NCBI GenBank assembly: GCA_025454395.1
Contig: JALOOM010000041.1
Coordinates: forward strand, 1-37,636
Source: Elainella sp. Prado103
GTDB taxonomy: Bacteria; Cyanobacteriota; Cyanobacteriia; Elainellales; Elainellaceae
Length of the DNA stretch: 37,636 nt
Direction: 5' to 3'
Below are positions 9,446-16,395 of this stretch, piece after piece. The notes beneath the pieces were generated by a model that had not been told where the DNA came from, ran no database searches, and saw only the letters and a program-made list of their open reading frames with translations. Position 1 is the first letter of the stretch. Every line of letters begins with the position of its first letter. A program made the translations under genes and the position numbers.

Positions 9446-9646
9446 ATGAGTAGTTTACAAGACATTGAAAGTGCTATCAGTAAGCTATCCGCAGATGAGC
9501 TTGCTGCTTTCCGAGCCTGGTTCGCAGAGTTTGATGCTGAGGTATGGGATCGGCAGTTTGAGGAAGATGTTGCCGCAGGTCGGCTTAATAAGTTGGCAGA
9601 GCGAGCACTGCAACATTTACGAGAAGGGCGTTGCACTGATCTGTGA
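9446..9646 (+). CDS. Putative antitoxin of a RelE/ParE-type module
   Basis: A 66-residue acidic protein (SLQDIESAISKLSADELAAFRAWFAEFDAEVWDRQFEEDVAAGRLNKLAERAL). The ELAAFRxWFxEFDAExWDRQFExDxxAGRLxxLAEEAL-type pattern is a recurrent partner of RelE/ParE toxins in cyanobacteria. No DNA-binding fold can be made out, so autoregulation is not evident. The ATG at 9446 is preferred over an in-frame TTG 24 bp upstream. Its stop overlaps the GTG start of the next gene in a GTGA arrangement, so the two are translationally coupled. Confidence 0.8.
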   Translation: MSSLQDIESAISKLSADELAAFRAWFAEFDAEVWDRQFEEDVAAGRLNKLAERALQHLREGRCTDL

Positions 9647-9903
9647 GATATCGCGCAACTCCTGATTTCTGGTATCACTATCGACAGTTACCAGATGACA
9701 TTCAAGACCTCGCCGATCGATGTTATGAGTTGCTCAAGCAGGATTCTCGATATCCATCGCTGCACTTCAAAAAGGTAGGGCAATTTTGGTCAGTACGAAT
9801 AGGCGTTCATTACCGTGCTTTAGCAGTAGAGGAAAACAACGATATTGCGTGGTTTTGGATTGGAACACATGCGGAATATGATCAGTTGTTGCGAGGTGGA
9901 TAG
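9643..9903 (+). CDS. RelE/ParE-family toxin
   Basis: An 86-residue basic/aromatic protein with a RelE/ParE-like pattern: short N-terminal strand (RYRATPDFWYHYRQLP), helical segment DIQDLADRCYELLKQD, then strands HFKKVGQFWSVRIGVHYRALAV and the end motif AWFWIGTHAEYDQLL. Such toxins usually act as ribosome-dependent mRNases or, in the ParE branch, on gyrase; I cannot tell which here. GTG start, overlapping the antitoxin stop by four bases. Both genes are intact. Confidence 0.83.
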   Translation: MRYRATPDFWYHYRQLPDDIQDLADRCYELLKQDSRYPSLHFKKVGQFWSVRIGVHYRALAVEENNDIAWFWIGTHAEYDQLLRGG

Positions 9904-10070: not shown

Positions 10071-12392
10071 TTAATCGATCGGATCAATCATCGGCTTAAT
10101 GGCAGTGGAATCGGGAAAGCTCACTGTGCAAGTAGTACCGACACCAACCTGGCTATGGATCTGAATCTTGCCTTGATGGAGTTCCACACATTTTTTGACC
10201 ACGACCAATCCTAAGCCTGTTCCTGGAATAGTGCGAATATTTTTGCCCCGATGAAATGGCTCAAATAGCCGCTTGTGGTCTGCTGGCAAAATGCCAATTC
10301 CTTGGTCTTGTACCCTGATCTGAACGCGATCGACCTGAAAGGATAACGTGAGGGTCACCTGTCCGCCATTGGGAGAATACTTGACCGCATTGGAGAGCAA
10401 ATTCGACAAAATTGATCGCATTAATTTCTCATCCAGATCGATCGGACGAGGAATGCCCTGGCAAGTGAACGAGAGTAGATGCTGGGAACCGGCACTCAAC
10501 TGCATTTCCTCAATAAAATGATGGCAGTATTGTTCCAGATTCAAGGGTTTGGGATGAAAAGCCAGGTTTCCTGTTTCAGCGCGATTGATGGTTAAAATAT
10601 CATCCAGTAACTGCACCATATGTTTAACAGAATCCTGAATGCGGTAGAGATTACGCAGGCGTTTTTCGGTATTGTCCCACTCGTTTGGGGAGTTTTCTAA
10701 AACTTGCGCCGCCGCTAAGGCCGTACTTAGAGGGGTGCGAAACTCATGGGATGCCATCGAGAAGAAGCGGGTTTTAAGGGCGCTCAGTTCTTTTTCTCGT
10801 TCTAGAGCAAGGCGAATTTCATCGCTCCGTTTACGGGCAGTCGTATCGCGTTGAACGGCGATCCAGTGGGTATACCATCCCTGAGCATTAGCAACCGGCA
10901 CCAGACTCAATTCATTCCAAAACTCAGAGCCATCTTTACGATAGTTGATTACTTCAACGGTTACAGGCTCCCAACTGGCTAAAGCCGATCGAATTTTTTG
11001 GAGCTCAGCTCGATCGGTTTTAGCACCTTGTAAAATGCGGGGGGTTTTGCCCAAAACTTCCTCCGGTTGATAACCCGTAATGCGGGTGAAAGCTTCGTTG
11101 ACATAAAGGATCCGTGGGCCAGGTGAGTCAATGGGTTCGGCTTCTGTAATAATCACTGCATCGTTCGTATTCACGACTACAGATTGCAGTAAGCGGAGTT
11201 GTTCAGCCCGTTGCTTTTGCTCAGTAATATCTGTGATCACGGCAACAATGCCACGAATTTGATTGTTTGTATCCAGTAAGGGAGCGGCTGAGAAAATAAT
11301 ATCGATCGCTGTACCATCTTTTCTATGACGACGTAACTCGATCCGAGTATGGGTTTCGCCTTGCAGCACACTACTTTGCAGCGTTGTTTGATCTGCCAAC
11401 TGATCATCTAATCGAATGGGGCTAGGGCGATTGATCACTTCTGATTCAGCCCAACCAAACATACGCTCAGCAGCAGGATTCCAGATTTGAATTTTGCCTT
11501 CTAGATCCAACATCAAGATGGCTCTGGGCGAAGCAGTGACCAATGCTTGTAAGGTTTCGTTGCTGTGTCGTAGAGCGATCTCAGTGCGCTGCCGTTCGGC
11601 AATTTCCGCTCGCAAAGAAGCATTGACAGTCGCCAATTCGGTGGTTCGCTGTTGCACCCGTTGTTCGAGCTGGGTATTCAGTTGCTGAAGTTGGTTATAC
11701 AGCTCAGATTGTTGAATTGCGATCGCCACTTGAGTAGACAATTGCTTCATCAATTCCACTTCCCAGGTTTCCCACTGACGCGGGCGACTGCATTGATGGG
11801 CGATCAAGAGCCCCCAAAGGTACGGCCGACAATGGGGATGGCAGGAATACTCACAGGAATACTCGGCTGTCTGGGCTCCCTTTGCTTGGATAATCGGTAC
11901 AACTAATTTAGCCCGCACTCCAAACTGGGTGACAAATTCTGCCAGACAAGCTTCCACATCGGACTGCTCAAGATCAGTAATTGTGCGCGTTTTCCCCCCA
12001 GAATAGGCTTGATGATATGGGCGAGGAAAAACTTCGGCTGGAAAGGTTTGCCCTAAAATACTGGGATAAGGAGGTAAGACGGTTTCATGGATCGCCGAAC
12101 CAGTACCATCATCCCATAGGCGATAGATTAAAACGCGATCGGCTTTCAAAAAACGCTGCACCTCCTCAACCGTGGTAGACATGACTTCGTCTAAGTTGAG
12201 TGATTGGCGAATTTGCTGAGCAATCTGAGTTACCAATCGTTCCCGATCGGTCTGTTGTCTCAATAACATTTCAGCTTGCCGCCGCCGGGATATTTCCTGG
12301 TTGAAATATCCGTACATTGCTGCCAATAATAAACTACAGAAAGCCACCCCGATCGAAATAGCATCAGGGAGGCTGGTTAGGGAGGGGGGCAT
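10071..12392 (-). CDS. ccaS: CcaS, green/red cyanobacteriochrome histidine kinase
   Basis: Membrane-bound hybrid of photosensor and kinase, 773 residues, with the CcaS order: N-terminal membrane helix (about 12-30), bilin-binding GAF (about 50-230), two PAS domains (about 277-395 and 398-520), and a histidine kinase with SHEFRTPL (phospho-acceptor His549), N-box NLLSNAVKYSP, DQGIGI and GTGLGL. The chromophore Cys is 149, followed by Leu150 instead of the usual His. Glu120 and Lys162 complete a candidate Glu/Leu/Lys protochromic triad as described for RcaE and CcaS, where green light favours kinase activity and red light reverses it. Residues 168-191 hold an unusual Cys/His-rich insertion. It follows cpcL on the same strand after 102 bp, so read-through may give feedback. 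The cognate regulator ccaR lies beyond cpcL, divergent. Confidence 0.92.
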   Translation of the reverse strand: MPPSLTSLPDAISIGVAFCSLLLAAMYGYFNQEISRRRQAEMLLRQQTDRERLVTQIAQQIRQSLNLDEVMSTTVEEVQRFLKADRVLIYRLWDDGTGSAIHETVLPPYPSILGQTFPAEVFPRPYHQAYSGGKTRTITDLEQSDVEACLAEFVTQFGVRAKLVVPIIQAKGAQTAEYSCEYSCHPHCRPYLWGLLIAHQCSRPRQWETWEVELMKQLSTQVAIAIQQSELYNQLQQLNTQLEQRVQQRTTELATVNASLRAEIAERQRTEIALRHSNETLQALVTASPRAILMLDLEGKIQIWNPAAERMFGWAESEVINRPSPIRLDDQLADQTTLQSSVLQGETHTRIELRRHRKDGTAIDIIFSAAPLLDTNNQIRGIVAVITDITEQKQRAEQLRLLQSVVVNTNDAVIITEAEPIDSPGPRILYVNEAFTRITGYQPEEVLGKTPRILQGAKTDRAELQKIRSALASWEPVTVEVINYRKDGSEFWNELSLVPVANAQGWYTHWIAVQRDTTARKRSDEIRLALEREKELSALKTRFFSMASHEFRTPLSTALAAAQVLENSPNEWDNTEKRLRNLYRIQDSVKHMVQLLDDILTINRAETGNLAFHPKPLNLEQYCHHFIEEMQLSAGSQHLLSFTCQGIPRPIDLDEKLMRSILSNLLSNAVKYSPNGGQVTLTLSFQVDRVQIRVQDQGIGILPADHKRLFEPFHRGKNIRTIPGTGLGLVVVKKCVELHQGKIQIHSQVGVGTTCTVSFPDSTAIKPMIDPID
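11841..11864. repeat. 12-bp tandem duplication inside ccaS
   Basis: Two adjacent copies, gcaggaatactc and acaggaatactc, encode the doubled EYSC of the GAF insertion (residues 177-184). They differ at one base, which is silent. Confidence 0.85.
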
Positions 12393-12494
12393 AGCGCATC
12401 GATCGCGGGATTACGTTAGATGGATTGCGTTCGGTGAACCAATGGGTGGAATTCAATCTTAAAACCTAGAATGGCTATTTTGCAGCTCATCCTA

Positions 12495-13247
12495 TTAGTT
12501 TGCCAATGCTACCGCGAACATACCAATCATCACGATCGAGAGTGGTAATAAAACGGCTGCTACCATTGGCCAATTGGCTCGATCGATAAAGGTTTTGAGG
12601 TCAAATTTCTCACCTTGAGTAAACAACCCATCCGCATGAGAAGGAGTCAGCCAACTACGAGATAGACCAGGTTTCGGCAATTTGTTGCGGTAATCACTAC
12701 CATAACGAGCAGTATGGGCAAAGGTTACTTCTCCCTGGATCCGTTTGGGCAAAATGCGACGGCGTTGATAGGGAACAGTGTGAGCGCCAAAATTTTGTTG
12801 GTATTCTTCACTGTTCAACAAAGCATCCACAAATCCCCGTAAGCCTTCAGTGGCTAACACAATTGACCAGGATAACCGTTCTCGATCGCTGTAGCTGTTG
12901 CGTCCCAGAATTCTTTGAACACAAATTTCTACAAAACGATAGTTGTTATTGCAATCATAAACCAGTCGTCGGAAAGAATCCGCTAAAACCAATCCACGAA
13001 TGAAATCTTTAACGGTGATTTGTCCGGCTCGGAGCTGAGATTCTAACAGCGGTTGACGGTGACTCAAAAGCATTTGTTGCTCGTTAAAGATCTGGCGATA
13101 GGCGGCTTTAATCAGCAGATCCATTTCTGTATTTGAAAGCAGCCCATCCGTATTATAAATGCGAGGTTGTTCATCACCAGGCACTTCAAACCCTTTCACG
13201 CGCTGATTTTGGGATCGGGGTGCATATTCTAACAGAGGCAGGGACAT
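12495..13247 (-). CDS. cpcL: CpcL (CpcG2), membrane-anchored phycobilisome rod linker
   Basis: A 250-residue rod-core-type linker. The PBS linker domain (about 20-150) is clear: LLSNTEMDLLIKAAYRQIFNEQQML, LRAGQITVKDFIRGLVLADSFRRLVYDCNNNYRFVEICVQRILGR, LNSEEYQQNFGAHTVPYQRRR. The tail ends in a hydrophobic helix (about 227-249, PMVAAVLLPLSIVMIGMFAVALA), the hallmark that separates CpcL from core-binding CpcG1. CpcL builds core-less phycocyanin rods anchored in the thylakoid membrane that pass energy mainly to photosystem I. The ATG has GGAG at a good distance. The tandem CcaR-type site about 240 bp upstream implies induction by green light. No phycocyanin genes are adjacent. Confidence 0.93.
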   Translation of the reverse strand: MSLPLLEYAPRSQNQRVKGFEVPGDEQPRIYNTDGLLSNTEMDLLIKAAYRQIFNEQQMLLSHRQPLLESQLRAGQITVKDFIRGLVLADSFRRLVYDCNNNYRFVEICVQRILGRNSYSDRERLSWSIVLATEGLRGFVDALLNSEEYQQNFGAHTVPYQRRRILPKRIQGEVTFAHTARYGSDYRNKLPKPGLSRSWLTPSHADGLFTQGEKFDLKTFIDRANWPMVAAVLLPLSIVMIGMFAVALAN

Positions 13248-13459
13248 TCAAGTTCTCCAAAAAATGTATTGAGGTTATGAATGGAGGAGCGATACGCTTG
13301 AGGATCGCTTTAGCTTCTGAGCCAGTTGACTGGGAGCAGAAGCAGGGGAATGCTCAAAAGGAATAATGATCACAGATTGCTGAGAGCAGATTCAATGATT
13401 AATATCAACCGGCTTTATGGTGTGATTTGCCACCGTAAACAACTCTGAAATTTAAGCAT

Positions 13460-13466
13460 CTCATAT
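13460..13466 (-). promoter_or_regulatory. Candidate -10 of the cpcL promoter
   Basis: On the minus strand ATATGAG lies about 23 bp downstream of the tandem G-box, so the activator would sit over the -35 region of a promoter that lacks a good -35 hexamer. This predicts a leader of about 200 nt. Inferred from spacing only. Confidence 0.3.
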
Positions 13467-13489
13467 CAAAAGTAAAGAAACTTGTTAGA

Positions 13490-13511
13490 AAACGGTAAAG
13501 AAAGCGGAAAG
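13490..13511 (-). promoter_or_regulatory. Tandem G-box-like CcaR binding site
   Basis: Read towards cpcL, two abutting 11-mers, CTTTCCGCTTT (13511-13501) and CTTTACCGTTT (13500-13490), fit the published CcaR G-box CTTTNCNATTT at every fixed position except the A at position 8. The direct-repeat layout with 11-bp period suits two OmpR/PhoB-type subunits on one face of the helix. A weaker partial copy (CTTTACTTTTG, 13477-13467) lies 23 bp further towards the gene. Confidence 0.75.
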
Positions 13512-13551
13512 AAATCAAAAAGTAATAAATCTTGACAATTTATTGAATTTA

Positions 13552-13573
13552 TTTAGACAGTGTTTTAGACAGT
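13552..13573 (+). promoter_or_regulatory. Direct repeat TTTAGACAGT, 12-bp period
   Basis: Two perfect copies of tttagacagt at 13552-13561 and 13564-13573 lie between the G-box and ccaR. A TTGACA hexamer (13532-13537) stands just upstream on the plus strand and could belong to a ccaR promoter. The binding protein is unknown. Confidence 0.4.
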
Positions 13574-13810
13574 ATTAATGTGATCTATGGCAGATGAGAT
13601 TGCTTAACGCTCGGCAAGACTGATTCGGAACCGATCTAGAACTTGCTTGGAATCGGTCTGATACCAATTTGATATGAGCTTGCATAGAATCAATTCTTGC
13701 TAGGCAAGGGGCTTAAGTTCCGGGTTCTACTTCGCTTCACAAAGAATCGGACTGAGACGCGATCAAGAATAAAATTGCGGCACAGAGTCCTGTAGAATTG
13801 GAACAACTCT

Positions 13811-13849
13811 GAATAGTAATTTTTCTATTCCGAATAGTTGTTTTTCTAT
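13811..13849 (+). promoter_or_regulatory. Imperfect 18-bp direct repeat just upstream of ccaR
   Basis: The segments gaatagtaatttttctat (13811-13828) and gaatagttgtttttctat (13832-13849) differ at two positions and are spaced 21 bp apart, i.e. two helical turns. The second ends 28 bp before the ccaR ATG, so the pair may overlap the promoter or the early leader. It does not look like the G-box. Confidence 0.5.
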
Positions 13850-13877
13850 ATAGTTGCTTTTTCCTTCCCCTCCAGCG

Positions 13878-14555
13878 ATGAGGATTCTCCTAGTTGAAGA
13901 TGATATTCGTCTTGCAGAAACATTGGCAGAAGCGTTAACCGATCAGCGGTATGTGGTCGATGTTGCGATCGATGGAGAAACCGGCTGGCATCAAGCCCAA
14001 TCGCTGGATTATGACTTACTGGTGTTGGATGTCATGCTCCCTGAGTTAGATGGCATTAGTTTATGTCATCGATTGCGATCCCATGGATACAATTTGCCAA
14101 TTCTGATGCTCACCGCTTGTGACACACTGGACGACGAAATCAATGGGCTCGATCGGGGAGCCGATGACTATGTGGTTAAACCCGTTGATTTACAAAAATT
14201 ATTTGCCCGAATTCGGGCTTTGCTGCGTCGCGGAACCGCCAGTGCTGCTCCCATTCTGAGATGGGGCGATCTCCATCTAAACCCCAGCACTTGCGAAGTC
14301 GGCTACGGACAGACTCCGATCCATCTGACTCCTAAAGAGTATGCTCTCCTCGAATTGCTCCTCCGGAATGGTCGTCGTGTCTTAAGCCGCAGTGTGATGA
14401 TCGAGCATGTTTGGTCATTAGAATCTCCTCCTGAGGAACATACAGTCAAGGTTCACATTCGTGGATTACGTCAGAAACTTAAAGCGGCTGGCGCTTCTGA
14501 CGATCTGATCGAGACCGTTCACAGTATGGGTTACCGGATGAATCAGCTCAGTTAG
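13878..14555 (+). CDS. ccaR: CcaR, OmpR/PhoB-type response regulator
   Basis: A 225-residue response regulator that, when phosphorylated by CcaS, activates cpcL. The receiver (1-118) has the acidic pair ED at 7-8, phospho-acceptor Asp51 (LLVLDVMLPELDGI) and Lys101 (YVVKPVDLQKLFARIRALLRRG). The winged-helix domain (about 128-223) contains LTPKEYALLELLLRNGRRVLSRS, LESPPEEHTVKVHIRGLRQKLK and ETVHSMGYRM. These segments are close to what I remember of Synechocystis CcaR, including the diagnostic LESPPEE-TVKVH stretch. An in-frame TTG at 13854 would add eight residues, but the MRILLVEDD start fits the family. It is divergent from cpcL across about 630 bp. Confidence 0.93.
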   Translation: MRILLVEDDIRLAETLAEALTDQRYVVDVAIDGETGWHQAQSLDYDLLVLDVMLPELDGISLCHRLRSHGYNLPILMLTACDTLDDEINGLDRGADDYVVKPVDLQKLFARIRALLRRGTASAAPILRWGDLHLNPSTCEVGYGQTPIHLTPKEYALLELLLRNGRRVLSRSVMIEHVWSLESPPEEHTVKVHIRGLRQKLKAAGASDDLIETVHSMGYRMNQLS

Positions 14556-14835: not shown

Positions 14836-16395
14836 ATGTGGCAAACAATTTGGCAAAAAACTTGGCAAAAAACTTGGCAAAAAATTTGGCAAAAAATTTG
14901 GCAAAAAACTTGGCGGAAGACATTGGTTGTCTGCTTGACCGGCTGCTGCTGGCTCTGTTGGAATCAGCCTAGCCTGGCCGCAACTTTATCCAACGAGGCA
15001 AAGGTGTTCCATGTTCTCAATCGCTTAGGGTTTGGAGCCAGCCCCAGCAGTTTAGAGCAAGTTCGATCGATCGGGGTTGAGGCTTATATTCAAGCCCAAC
15101 TTCATCCCAGTTCCATTCCCGAATCTGCGATCTTGATCGATCGACTGCAACAATTCGAGACCCTGCAACTGAGCCCAACCGAGCTATTGCAGCAATATCG
15201 GGTCTTGCCGACTGAGGTAGTTGAATCGAATGCCAACTTCAAGGGGTTAACGCCTCTGGATCAAGCCACGCAAGCCAAATTGCTACGAGCGATTAGCAGT
15301 CCGCGCCAGCTTGAAGAAGTGATGGTGGACTTTTGGTATAACCACTTCAATGTTGCCTCTGACAAAGGATTAGCGCGCTATTGGGTGGGTGTTTACGAGC
15401 GGGATGCCATTCGCCCCTATGTCTTTGGCAAATTTCGGGATCTACTGGGAGCCACAGCCAAACATCCGGCCATGCTATTCTACCTGGATAATTGGGTAAA
15501 TGGAATTTCCCCTAGGGCAGCTCGACGGGGAGAATTAGATGAGGTAAACGAAAATTATGCTCGCGAAGTCATGGAATTACATACTATGGGAGTGGGGAGT
15601 GGATACACTGAGCAGGATGTAATTACTCTGGCTCGGATCTTTACGGGCTGGGGCTTTTGCCAACCGCGACAATTTGAAGATCCTAACTTTTGCTTTAATC
15701 CCAAACGTCATGATCCCAGCAATAAGATTTTCTTGGGAACCTCTATTCCAGGCGGAGGGATGGAAGAAGGAGAACGAGCACTCGATATTCTAGCCCGTCA
15801 TCCTGCCACTGCCCGCTATATTAGCGATCGTCTCGCCCAATATTTTGTCGCCGATCGCCCGCCGGAATCTTTAGTAAACCGGATGGCACAAACCTTCCAA
15901 GACACGAATGGAGAAATCCGCGCCGTTTTAAACACCCTGTTTGATAGCCCCGAATTTTGGGATCCCCAAGTCGTTGGACACAAATTCAAATCTCCTTATC
16001 AATTTATGGTTGCAGCCGTGCGATCCAGCGGCATGGATGTGAAAAATGCGCGACCGATCGGCAGCATTCTACAACAGTTGGGTATGCGGCTGTATGGCTG
16101 TCCGTCCCCCGATGGTTACAAAAATACGCAGGATGTTTGGTTGAGTCCCTACGCGATCACTCGCCGCTTAGATTGGGTTGCCGTCTTGGCAACAGGTCGC
16201 TTACCCTTGACTGTGGATCCGCCGCCTCTCGGTGAACGAGCCACCCGCATTGAACGAACTCCGCTGGCTTACCAGCCCTTACTGGATCTATTAGGCAGTA
16301 CGCTCTCGACAGAAACACAACAATTGATTGAAGCATCTCCCCCCCGACTCCGAGCAGCGGCTGTGCTGGGAAGCCCTGAGTTGATGTATCGCTGA
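14836..16395 (+). CDS. DUF1800-family exported protein
   Basis: A protein of unknown function from the DUF1800 family, 519 residues from the ATG. Family motifs include FHVLNRLGFGASP near the N-terminus, EVMVDFWYNHFNV, NENYAREVMELHTMGV and DVITLARIFTGWGF. The N-terminus is odd: seven WQK(T/I)-like tetrapeptides precede a hydrophobic stretch (LVVCLTGCCWLCW) and SLAA, which could be a signal peptide cut after SLA or a lipobox (LTGC). The tetrapeptides come from a 12-bp tandem array. A TTG 27 bp upstream is a less likely start. It is followed at 29 bp by a DUF1501 gene, a pairing widely seen in bacteria. Confidence 0.88.
   Translation: MWQTIWQKTWQKTWQKIWQKIWQKTWRKTLVVCLTGCCWLCWNQPSLAATLSNEAKVFHVLNRLGFGASPSSLEQVRSIGVEAYIQAQLHPSSIPESAILIDRLQQFETLQLSPTELLQQYRVLPTEVVESNANFKGLTPLDQATQAKLLRAISSPRQLEEVMVDFWYNHFNVASDKGLARYWVGVYERDAIRPYVFGKFRDLLGATAKHPAMLFYLDNWVNGISPRAARRGELDEVNENYAREVMELHTMGVGSGYTEQDVITLARIFTGWGFCQPRQFEDPNFCFNPKRHDPSNKIFLGTSIPGGGMEEGERALDILARHPATARYISDRLAQYFVADRPPESLVNRMAQTFQDTNGEIRAVLNTLFDSPEFWDPQVVGHKFKSPYQFMVAAVRSSGMDVKNARPIGSILQQLGMRLYGCPSPDGYKNTQDVWLSPYAITRRLDWVAVLATGRLPLTVDPPPLGERATRIERTPLAYQPLLDLLGSTLSTETQQLIEASPPRLRAAAVLGSPELMYR
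14839..14910. repeat. In-frame 12-bp tandem repeat, six copies
   Basis: Six copies of tggcaaaaaactt-type 12-mers (tggcaaaaaact or ..att) open the DUF1800 reading frame, with a seventh decayed copy. They encode WQTI, WQKT, WQKT, WQKI, WQKI, WQKT. Copy-number change would keep the reading frame. Confidence 0.92.

Follow-up and report, generated by a model that had tools for sequence, protein, structure and literature searches.

A probable minimal CcaS/CcaR/CpcL chromatic acclimation module in Elainella sp. Prado103, whose genome also encodes an RcaE-type sensor

Results

The stretch of the Elainella sp. Prado103 genome analysed here, the complete contig C4 (JALOOM010000041.1, 37,636 nucleotides; the window hereafter), carries three genes that very probably form a standard minimal module of type 1 chromatic acclimation (CA1), consisting of the photosensor kinase CcaS, the response regulator CcaR and the rod-membrane linker CpcL. 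The initial annotation had described these genes as complete and adjacent, with ccaS and cpcL on one strand and ccaR divergent from them, and this description is borne out by the open reading frames (ORFs), which are uninterrupted and lie side by side, and by Pfam searches. The ccaS gene (10071..12392, minus strand) codes for a protein of 773 aa with GAF, PAS, PAS, HisKA (His549) and HATPase_c domains, and cpcL (12495..13247, minus strand) for a protein of 250 aa with a PF00427 (PBS_linker_poly) domain (E 1e-44). The ccaR gene (13878..14555, plus strand) encodes an OmpR-type response regulator of 225 aa with a receiver and a Trans_reg_C DNA-binding domain, in which Asp51 is the likely phospho-acceptor; its start was placed at TTG 13854 in the ORF list, and family comparison favours ATG 13878. 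CcaR is 84-87% identical to its counterparts in three of four ccaR-bearing related loci and 68% identical in the fourth (L079), and 84-87% identical in all six loci of a further set. The annotation had also stated that no phycobiliprotein genes lie beside the locus, which is true across the entire contig: none of the 15 places in the genome that match PF00502 (phycobiliprotein) is on contig C4, and cpcL is the sole one there of 13 places matching PF00427. Neither phycoerythrin linkers nor phycoerythrocyanin genes, as found in the CcaR operons of CA2 and CA7 clusters, are present at the window locus.

A C-terminal hydrophobic helix distinguishes CpcL from CpcG linkers (PMC9415938). The window protein combines the PF00427 domain with such a helix, which starts at about residue 228 and has a mean hydropathy of 2.54, a value matched by 2 of 2000 composition shuffles. 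In contrast, the CpcG encoded on contig 40 of the same genome peaks at 0.81, matched by 1630 of 2000 shuffles, and lacks the helix. Among the 13 linker places of the genome, only the window gene was recognised as cpcL; its GC content at third codon positions is slightly low (40.6%).

Upstream of cpcL, a G-box-like putative CcaR site was found (13490..13522, minus strand), a feature absent from the initial annotation. It consists of three tandem 11-base units about 240 bases from the cpcL start, of which the two nearest to cpcL match the tandem CTTTNCNNTTT pattern exactly, while the outer pair has one mismatch. The pattern never arose in 100 shuffled versions of the window, and 19 of 22 bases are equal, by eye, to the G-box of Synechocystis sp. 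PCC 6803 printed in PMC8256508. The site is also conserved in relatives. When the ccaR-operon stretch and 400 bases of its first ORF were scanned in 56 related loci, some of them near-copies, the best match had 0, 1, 2, 3 or 4 mismatches in 27, 20, 3, 5 and 1 loci, respectively, whereas the reversed control pattern gave no exact match and 1, 2, 3, 4 or 5 mismatches in 7, 18, 15, 14 and 2 loci. By sequence, cpcL thus lies behind a CcaR G-box within a CcaSR cluster, the arrangement that defines a CA1 locus. A pattern with one additional base between the units was rejected: it matched the window with two mismatches, was matched by 4 of 100 shuffles and gave 18 sites in the genome against 12 for its reverse, and the 11-base-period pattern was used in its place.

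Three exact G-box-like sites were found genome-wide, one of them at the window locus; the other two have no phycobilisome gene in the returned loci. The suggestion that the output of the system is limited to CpcL gains some weak support from these numbers. However, allowing one mismatch, six sites were found against two for the reversed pattern, so that chance sites are to be expected. One of the other exact sites, C15:58084-58116, is again an array of 11-base units, in which one tandem pair is exact and a second, overlapping pair has one mismatch; an ORF resembling an ABC-type ATPase, but no phycobilisome gene, was seen in its short locus. The other, C116:34987, sits among ORFs none of which was identified as a phycobilisome gene. 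As neither site has recognised phycobilisome genes as neighbours, we do not claim a second CcaR target.

The CcaS protein starts with a hydrophobic segment (approximately residues 8-26, maximum hydropathy 1.88), identified by hydropathy only, and its GAF domain spans residues 66-226. In a PDB sequence search, this domain matched best to RcaE GAF domains (8k9o, E 5e-49; 7ckv, E 4e-43). Residue conservation was determined in an alignment of 68 rows, comprising 67 CcaS proteins and the RcaE of the same genome. Cys149 (11946..11948, minus strand), the expected bilin attachment site from the alignment with RcaE, is a cysteine in 66 of the 68 rows, with two gaps. The residues of the protochromic triad are equally well conserved: Glu120 (12033..12035, minus strand) is a glutamate in 66 rows with two gaps, and Leu150, directly after Cys149, and Lys162 (11907..11909, minus strand) are a leucine and a lysine, respectively, in 67 rows with one gap each. 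We take Glu120 and Lys162 to correspond to Glu217 and Lys261 in RcaE numbering. The bilin cysteine and the triad are therefore unchanged wherever a row has a residue, and the kinase histidine is kept in all 68 rows. That a leucine replaces the histidine after the bilin cysteine has also been stated previously (PMC9415938). From characterised relatives, CcaS is predicted to carry phycocyanobilin and to photoconvert between green- and red-absorbing states.

The GAF identities and a CcaS tree group the window protein with CcaS and not with RcaE, the tree being rooted by a single RcaE row on a very long branch. Among 60 genomes, including that of Elainella sp. Prado103, six others encode a GAF domain that is 70-79% identical to that of the window CcaS, and the next-ranked match is at 48%; the identity to the RcaE of the same genome is also 48%. 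An AlphaFold2 model of the GAF domain, made from 33 aligned GAF domains, had a mean predicted local distance difference test score (pLDDT) of 82.2 for the best and 64.7 for the worst of five models. Foldseek ranked an RcaE structure first with this model, but with a large root mean square deviation (rmsd) over the aligned part (11.9); the RcaE structure 7ckv came ninth with an rmsd of 1.9.

To place the locus among its relatives, we used the best 80 of 81 loci from a profile search of genome contigs with a seven-row GAF alignment. Nine were without CcaS by our threshold (among them L130, whose frame is split), 17 lacked an upstream divergent ccaR within the locus and three could not be classed. 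The remaining 51 comprise 19 minimal loci (ccaR / cpcL / ccaS), 21 with phycoerythrin-type linkers and 11 with phycobiliprotein genes; the linker labels cpeC, cpeD and cpeE denote the best BLAST match to the linkers of the Elainella genome, which were named by place. The layout of the window is therefore common, and the minimal order is also present in Synechocystis salina (L146). In a Symploca locus (SIO2C1, L131), ccaS lies beyond ccaR as seen from the G-box operon, which begins with cpeC-, cpeD- and cpcL-like genes. Two metagenome-assembled genomes (MAGs) carry two ccaS loci on different contigs, Pleurocapsa MO_192.B19 (L129, L133) and Xenococcaceae MO_188.B19 (L145, L148).

The intergenic gap between cpcL and ccaS (12393..12494, minus strand) is 102 bases long, with no gene inside and no terminator-like site on the transcribed strand. 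In 42 of 71 loci, cpcL and ccaS are likewise codirectional with cpcL upstream, and the gap is often short, with a median of 121 bases in the 19 minimal loci. These observations fit the proposal of the initial annotation that transcription reads through from cpcL into ccaS and creates a positive feedback. A weak promoter-like site (9/12) overlaps the gap. The promoter scan returned 8 sites against a shuffle mean of 6.3 and the terminator scan 6 against 4.8; as neither exceeds the shuffles, both scans, including the promoter-like site at the gap, carry little weight. Read-through with positive feedback is plausible from the arrangement of the genes.

A second green/red system of the CA3 type is encoded elsewhere in the genome. 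Contig 96 (L040 9367-13785) carries genes for RcaE (GAF, PAS and kinase domains), the phycoerythrin beta and alpha subunits (cpeBA), PcyA, three PF00427 linkers and CpeS- and CpeT-type proteins; the phycoerythrin subunits and PcyA pass the NCBIfam cut-off. On contig 17 (L041 405-6543), RcaF- and RcaC-like regulators, named by their domains and place, are encoded next to a cpcBA operon with linkers. A second cpcBA operon with a divergent CpcG gene lies on contig 40; in both operons, the beta subunit scores above the cut-off for C-phycocyanin. Using the letters that we take to be the L-box motif, we found an exact L-box before the contig 17 cpcB and sites with one mismatch in front of pcyA, in the region that separates cpeC from rcaE, and upstream of cpcB on contig 40. 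The last site (L039 5909, minus strand) is about 380 bases upstream of cpcB, and this operon may hence also be under the control of RcaC. With up to one mismatch, four L-boxes were found in the four stretches, against none for the reversed pattern. The window has no L-box with fewer than three mismatches, and a G-box search that allowed one mismatch found nothing in the three L-box-bearing stretches outside the window. G-box and L-box sites are thus separate between the CcaSR and RcaEFC-like loci. RcaC has been described to act on cpc2 and pcyA (PMC8256508), and the distribution of the two kinds of site fits this and also an action of CcaR on cpcL. The phycoerythrin linkers, pcyA and the phycocyanin operons are likely targets of the RcaEFC-like system. 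With this system present elsewhere in the genome, the effects of green light in this cell should extend beyond CpcL.

Two further features were seen beside the module. Directly downstream of ccaS, a small ORF (9643-9903) encodes a ParE-like toxin domain (PF24732, E 6e-8). On the other side, a tandem TTGGCAAAAAA-type repeat (14836-14918) translates into WQKT/WQKI repeats at the N-terminus of a DUF1800 ORF, a tract that may reflect a wrong start or slippage.

Discussion

Here, we describe a locus that is, with high probability, a standard minimal CA1 module. This reading follows from the intact genes, the domain order, the bilin cysteine and triad, the CpcL helix, the conserved G-box and the shared layout, and the initial proposal of a rise in CpcL under green light is well supported by orthologues, conserved sensor residues, gene arrangement and the G-box. 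The conserved G-box is the strongest addition to this sequence-based case. The chromophore, the direction of the light response, the switching between kinase and phosphatase activity and the target complex we infer from characterised relatives. We propose that CcaS acts as a membrane-bound green/red cyanobacteriochrome kinase with phycocyanobilin, which would phosphorylate CcaR in green light. CcaR would then bind the tandem G-box and activate the expression of cpcL, possibly with read-through into ccaS. The CpcL protein produced would replace the rod-core linker and anchor phycobiliprotein rods to the thylakoid membrane, chiefly feeding photosystem I, in a cell in which the module would coexist with the separate RcaEFC-like system.

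Several observations weigh against this reading. First, the best 25 NCBIfam matches listed include no model that carries the name of CcaS, CcaR or CpcL, and the top models for the three proteins remained under their cut-offs (296.9/865, 237.2/420 and 216.4/250 bits, respectively). The names used here are therefore based on orthologues, layout and residues and not on a curated equivalog. Second, the eighth base of the window G-box is a C, whereas the 27 exact sites in relatives have an A (22) or a T (5). Third, switching in PCC 6803 is partial, broad and not strictly green (PMC12461855), and by analogy light control could be weak in Elainella as well. Fourth, the GAF domain of CcaS contains an insert unlike the other 67 rows of the alignment, which could in principle alter the photocycle.

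This insert (residues 172-188; 11829..11879, minus strand) lies in the loop between two GAF strands, appears by eye to hold a tandem duplication of EYSC, and contains two histidines and three cysteines, Cys180, Cys184 and Cys188. One might speculate that it makes CcaS a photoreceptor with two cysteines, the colour range of which is shifted, or that it provides a redox or metal input, all the more as any cysteine in this loop is seen in only 3 of 68 rows, the window CcaS included. However, the loop varies in length from 8 to 44, and in the model the insert is unstructured (pLDDT <50) in the turn between strands 122-130 and 152-161, which would place it at the end of a hairpin remote from the pocket residues. 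The position of the cysteines also argues against such a function. The DXCF motif precedes the bilin cysteine. In known insert-Cys receptors the second cysteine lies before this motif, as in the example of Cys713 and Tyr741 (PMC5240096), whereas the insert cysteines of CcaS follow the bilin cysteine by 31-39 residues. On these grounds we regard a two-cysteine photocycle as very unlikely, and likewise a redox or metal input. The insert is probably neutral and a result of drift in a variable loop.

The partial switching noted above also bears on the question whether cpcL is light-regulated at all. In Anabaena sp. PCC 7120, CpcL is reported to be constant, with no photoregulatory mechanism involved (PMC9415938), and the leaky switching of PCC 6803 (PMC12461855) points in the same direction. 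A constitutive CpcL in Elainella seems improbable to us, as ccaS and ccaR are intact and the sensor residues that were tested are conserved, as is the G-box.

Several known systems resemble the locus. The Synechocystis CA1 cluster, as seen in S. salina, has the same divergent ccaR, cpcL and ccaS in this order on one strand, a G-box upstream of cpcL and a CpcL with a C-terminal helix; ccaR, cpcL and ccaS have this orientation in PCC 6803 as well. In PCC 6803, the cpcL gene of the CcaSR cluster has a high transcript level from 470 to 630 nm and a low one in deep red and far-red light (PMC12461855). The cluster of this strain includes the small gene sll1472, and the strain has no green-absorbing phycobiliproteins (PMC12461855), whereas the 102-base gap in the window contains no gene and the genome encodes phycoerythrin and RcaEFC-like proteins. 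Closer in this respect is Calothrix brevissima NIES-22 (L097), which has a minimal ccaR / cpcL-ccaS locus together with RcaE and phycoerythrin (PMC9415938, Table 1) and a CcaS that is approximately 70% identical to that of the window; two CpcL proteins have been reported for it (PMC9415938), against one recognised here. CA2 and CA7 clusters, such as that of Leptolyngbya sp. PCC 6406 (L141), share the principle of sensor, regulator and G-box; unlike these, the window operon has no phycobiliprotein or rod-linker genes besides cpcL.

How did the minimal locus arise? It might be a remnant of a CA2-type cluster, which lost the phycoerythrin linkers between ccaR and cpcL after RcaE had taken over phycoerythrin, and which would still be CA1 in type. 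At the locus of the closest CcaS (L082, 78% identity over 762 columns), ccaR and cpcL are separated by cpeC- and cpeD-like genes. Linker or phycobiliprotein genes occupy this place in four of the six further genomes with CcaS; in the fifth, cpcL is preceded by linkers and ccaR is missing from the contig, and in the sixth the contig ends at ccaS. Moreover, the minimal form requires 11 changes on the tree of CcaS, 7 or more of them on starred branches, and the genome retains RcaE and three phycoerythrin-type linkers on contig 96. On the other hand, such counts of changes do not separate gain from loss, tblastn found no linker remnant in the 630-base gap between ccaR and cpcL (best rod-linker E 0.17), and L088, a minimal row, is about as near as L082 (path 0.54 against 0.51). 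We regard a CA2 origin as possible, if a little less probable than not.

In a test for horizontal transfer, no match of at least 70% was found in four congeners (99, 99, 91 and 77% complete), and none of 15 other window genes was found beside ccaSR in L082, L087, L088, L091, L093 and L103, some of which are short (tblastn, E up to 1e-8). In an empty-site comparison, a counterpart of the DUF1800 neighbour turned up in a single congener (54%), next to a DUF1501 gene, and no further neighbour is shared.

Does the presence of RcaE relate to the type of CcaSR locus in other genomes? Whole-genome searches covered 72 of the 80 loci, eight of low identity being left out, with L095 excluded from the counts; RcaE was called at 64% identity or more to the GAF domain of the Elainella RcaE, all other matches being at 59% or less. 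RcaE was found in 18 of 49 and 2 of 20 CcaS genomes in two sets, and coexistence of both sensors is therefore frequent; three Calothrix strains with both are listed in PMC9415938 (Table 1). It accompanies 12 of 18 minimal and 5 of 32 non-minimal loci (Fisher p 0.0005), or 12 of 18 against 5 of 21 (p 0.011) when loci of the phycobiliprotein type are left out. On the CcaS tree, five independent pairs gave a mean of 1.9 for, 0 against and 3.1 without a difference, which is not significant. The presence of RcaE or absence of cpeA was seen with 17 of 18 minimal loci, L133 being the sole exception, against 16 of 32 non-minimal loci (p 0.002), or 5 of 21 without the phycobiliprotein type (p 1e-5); tree pairs gave 2.3 or 3.5 in favour and none to the contrary (median p 0.5 or 0.125). 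The tree was a quick one with only Shimodaira-Hasegawa-like approximate likelihood ratio test support, and absences of genes are soft as several genomes are MAGs. Minimal loci thus tend to occur in genomes that bear RcaE or lack phycoerythrin, although the tree-aware test is not significant. This trend was not seen in the titles and beginnings of abstracts listed by literature searches; the 2019 survey of chromatic acclimation types by Hirose and colleagues may already describe CA1 together with CA3.

As a tentative and rather doubtful extension, the two systems might be read together, as two green/red sensors of opposite output that act on a common antenna. RcaE, RcaF and RcaC would set phycoerythrin and inducible phycocyanin via L-boxes, and CcaS and CcaR would keep only cpcL via the single G-box, so that the CpcL rods assembled for photosystem I in green light would bear phycoerythrin. 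On a wider scale, a CcaSR locus would be reduced to cpcL in genomes in which phycoerythrin has come under RcaE or is missing.

Taken alone, the locus is an ordinary and complete further example of a CA1 module. Together with the CA3-type genes, it provides a natural test case, in which one cell encodes both systems, each on contigs and with DNA motifs of its own. It can be tested here whether two green/red sensors split the antenna between the photosystems, and whether the content of CcaSR operons tracks the control by RcaE.

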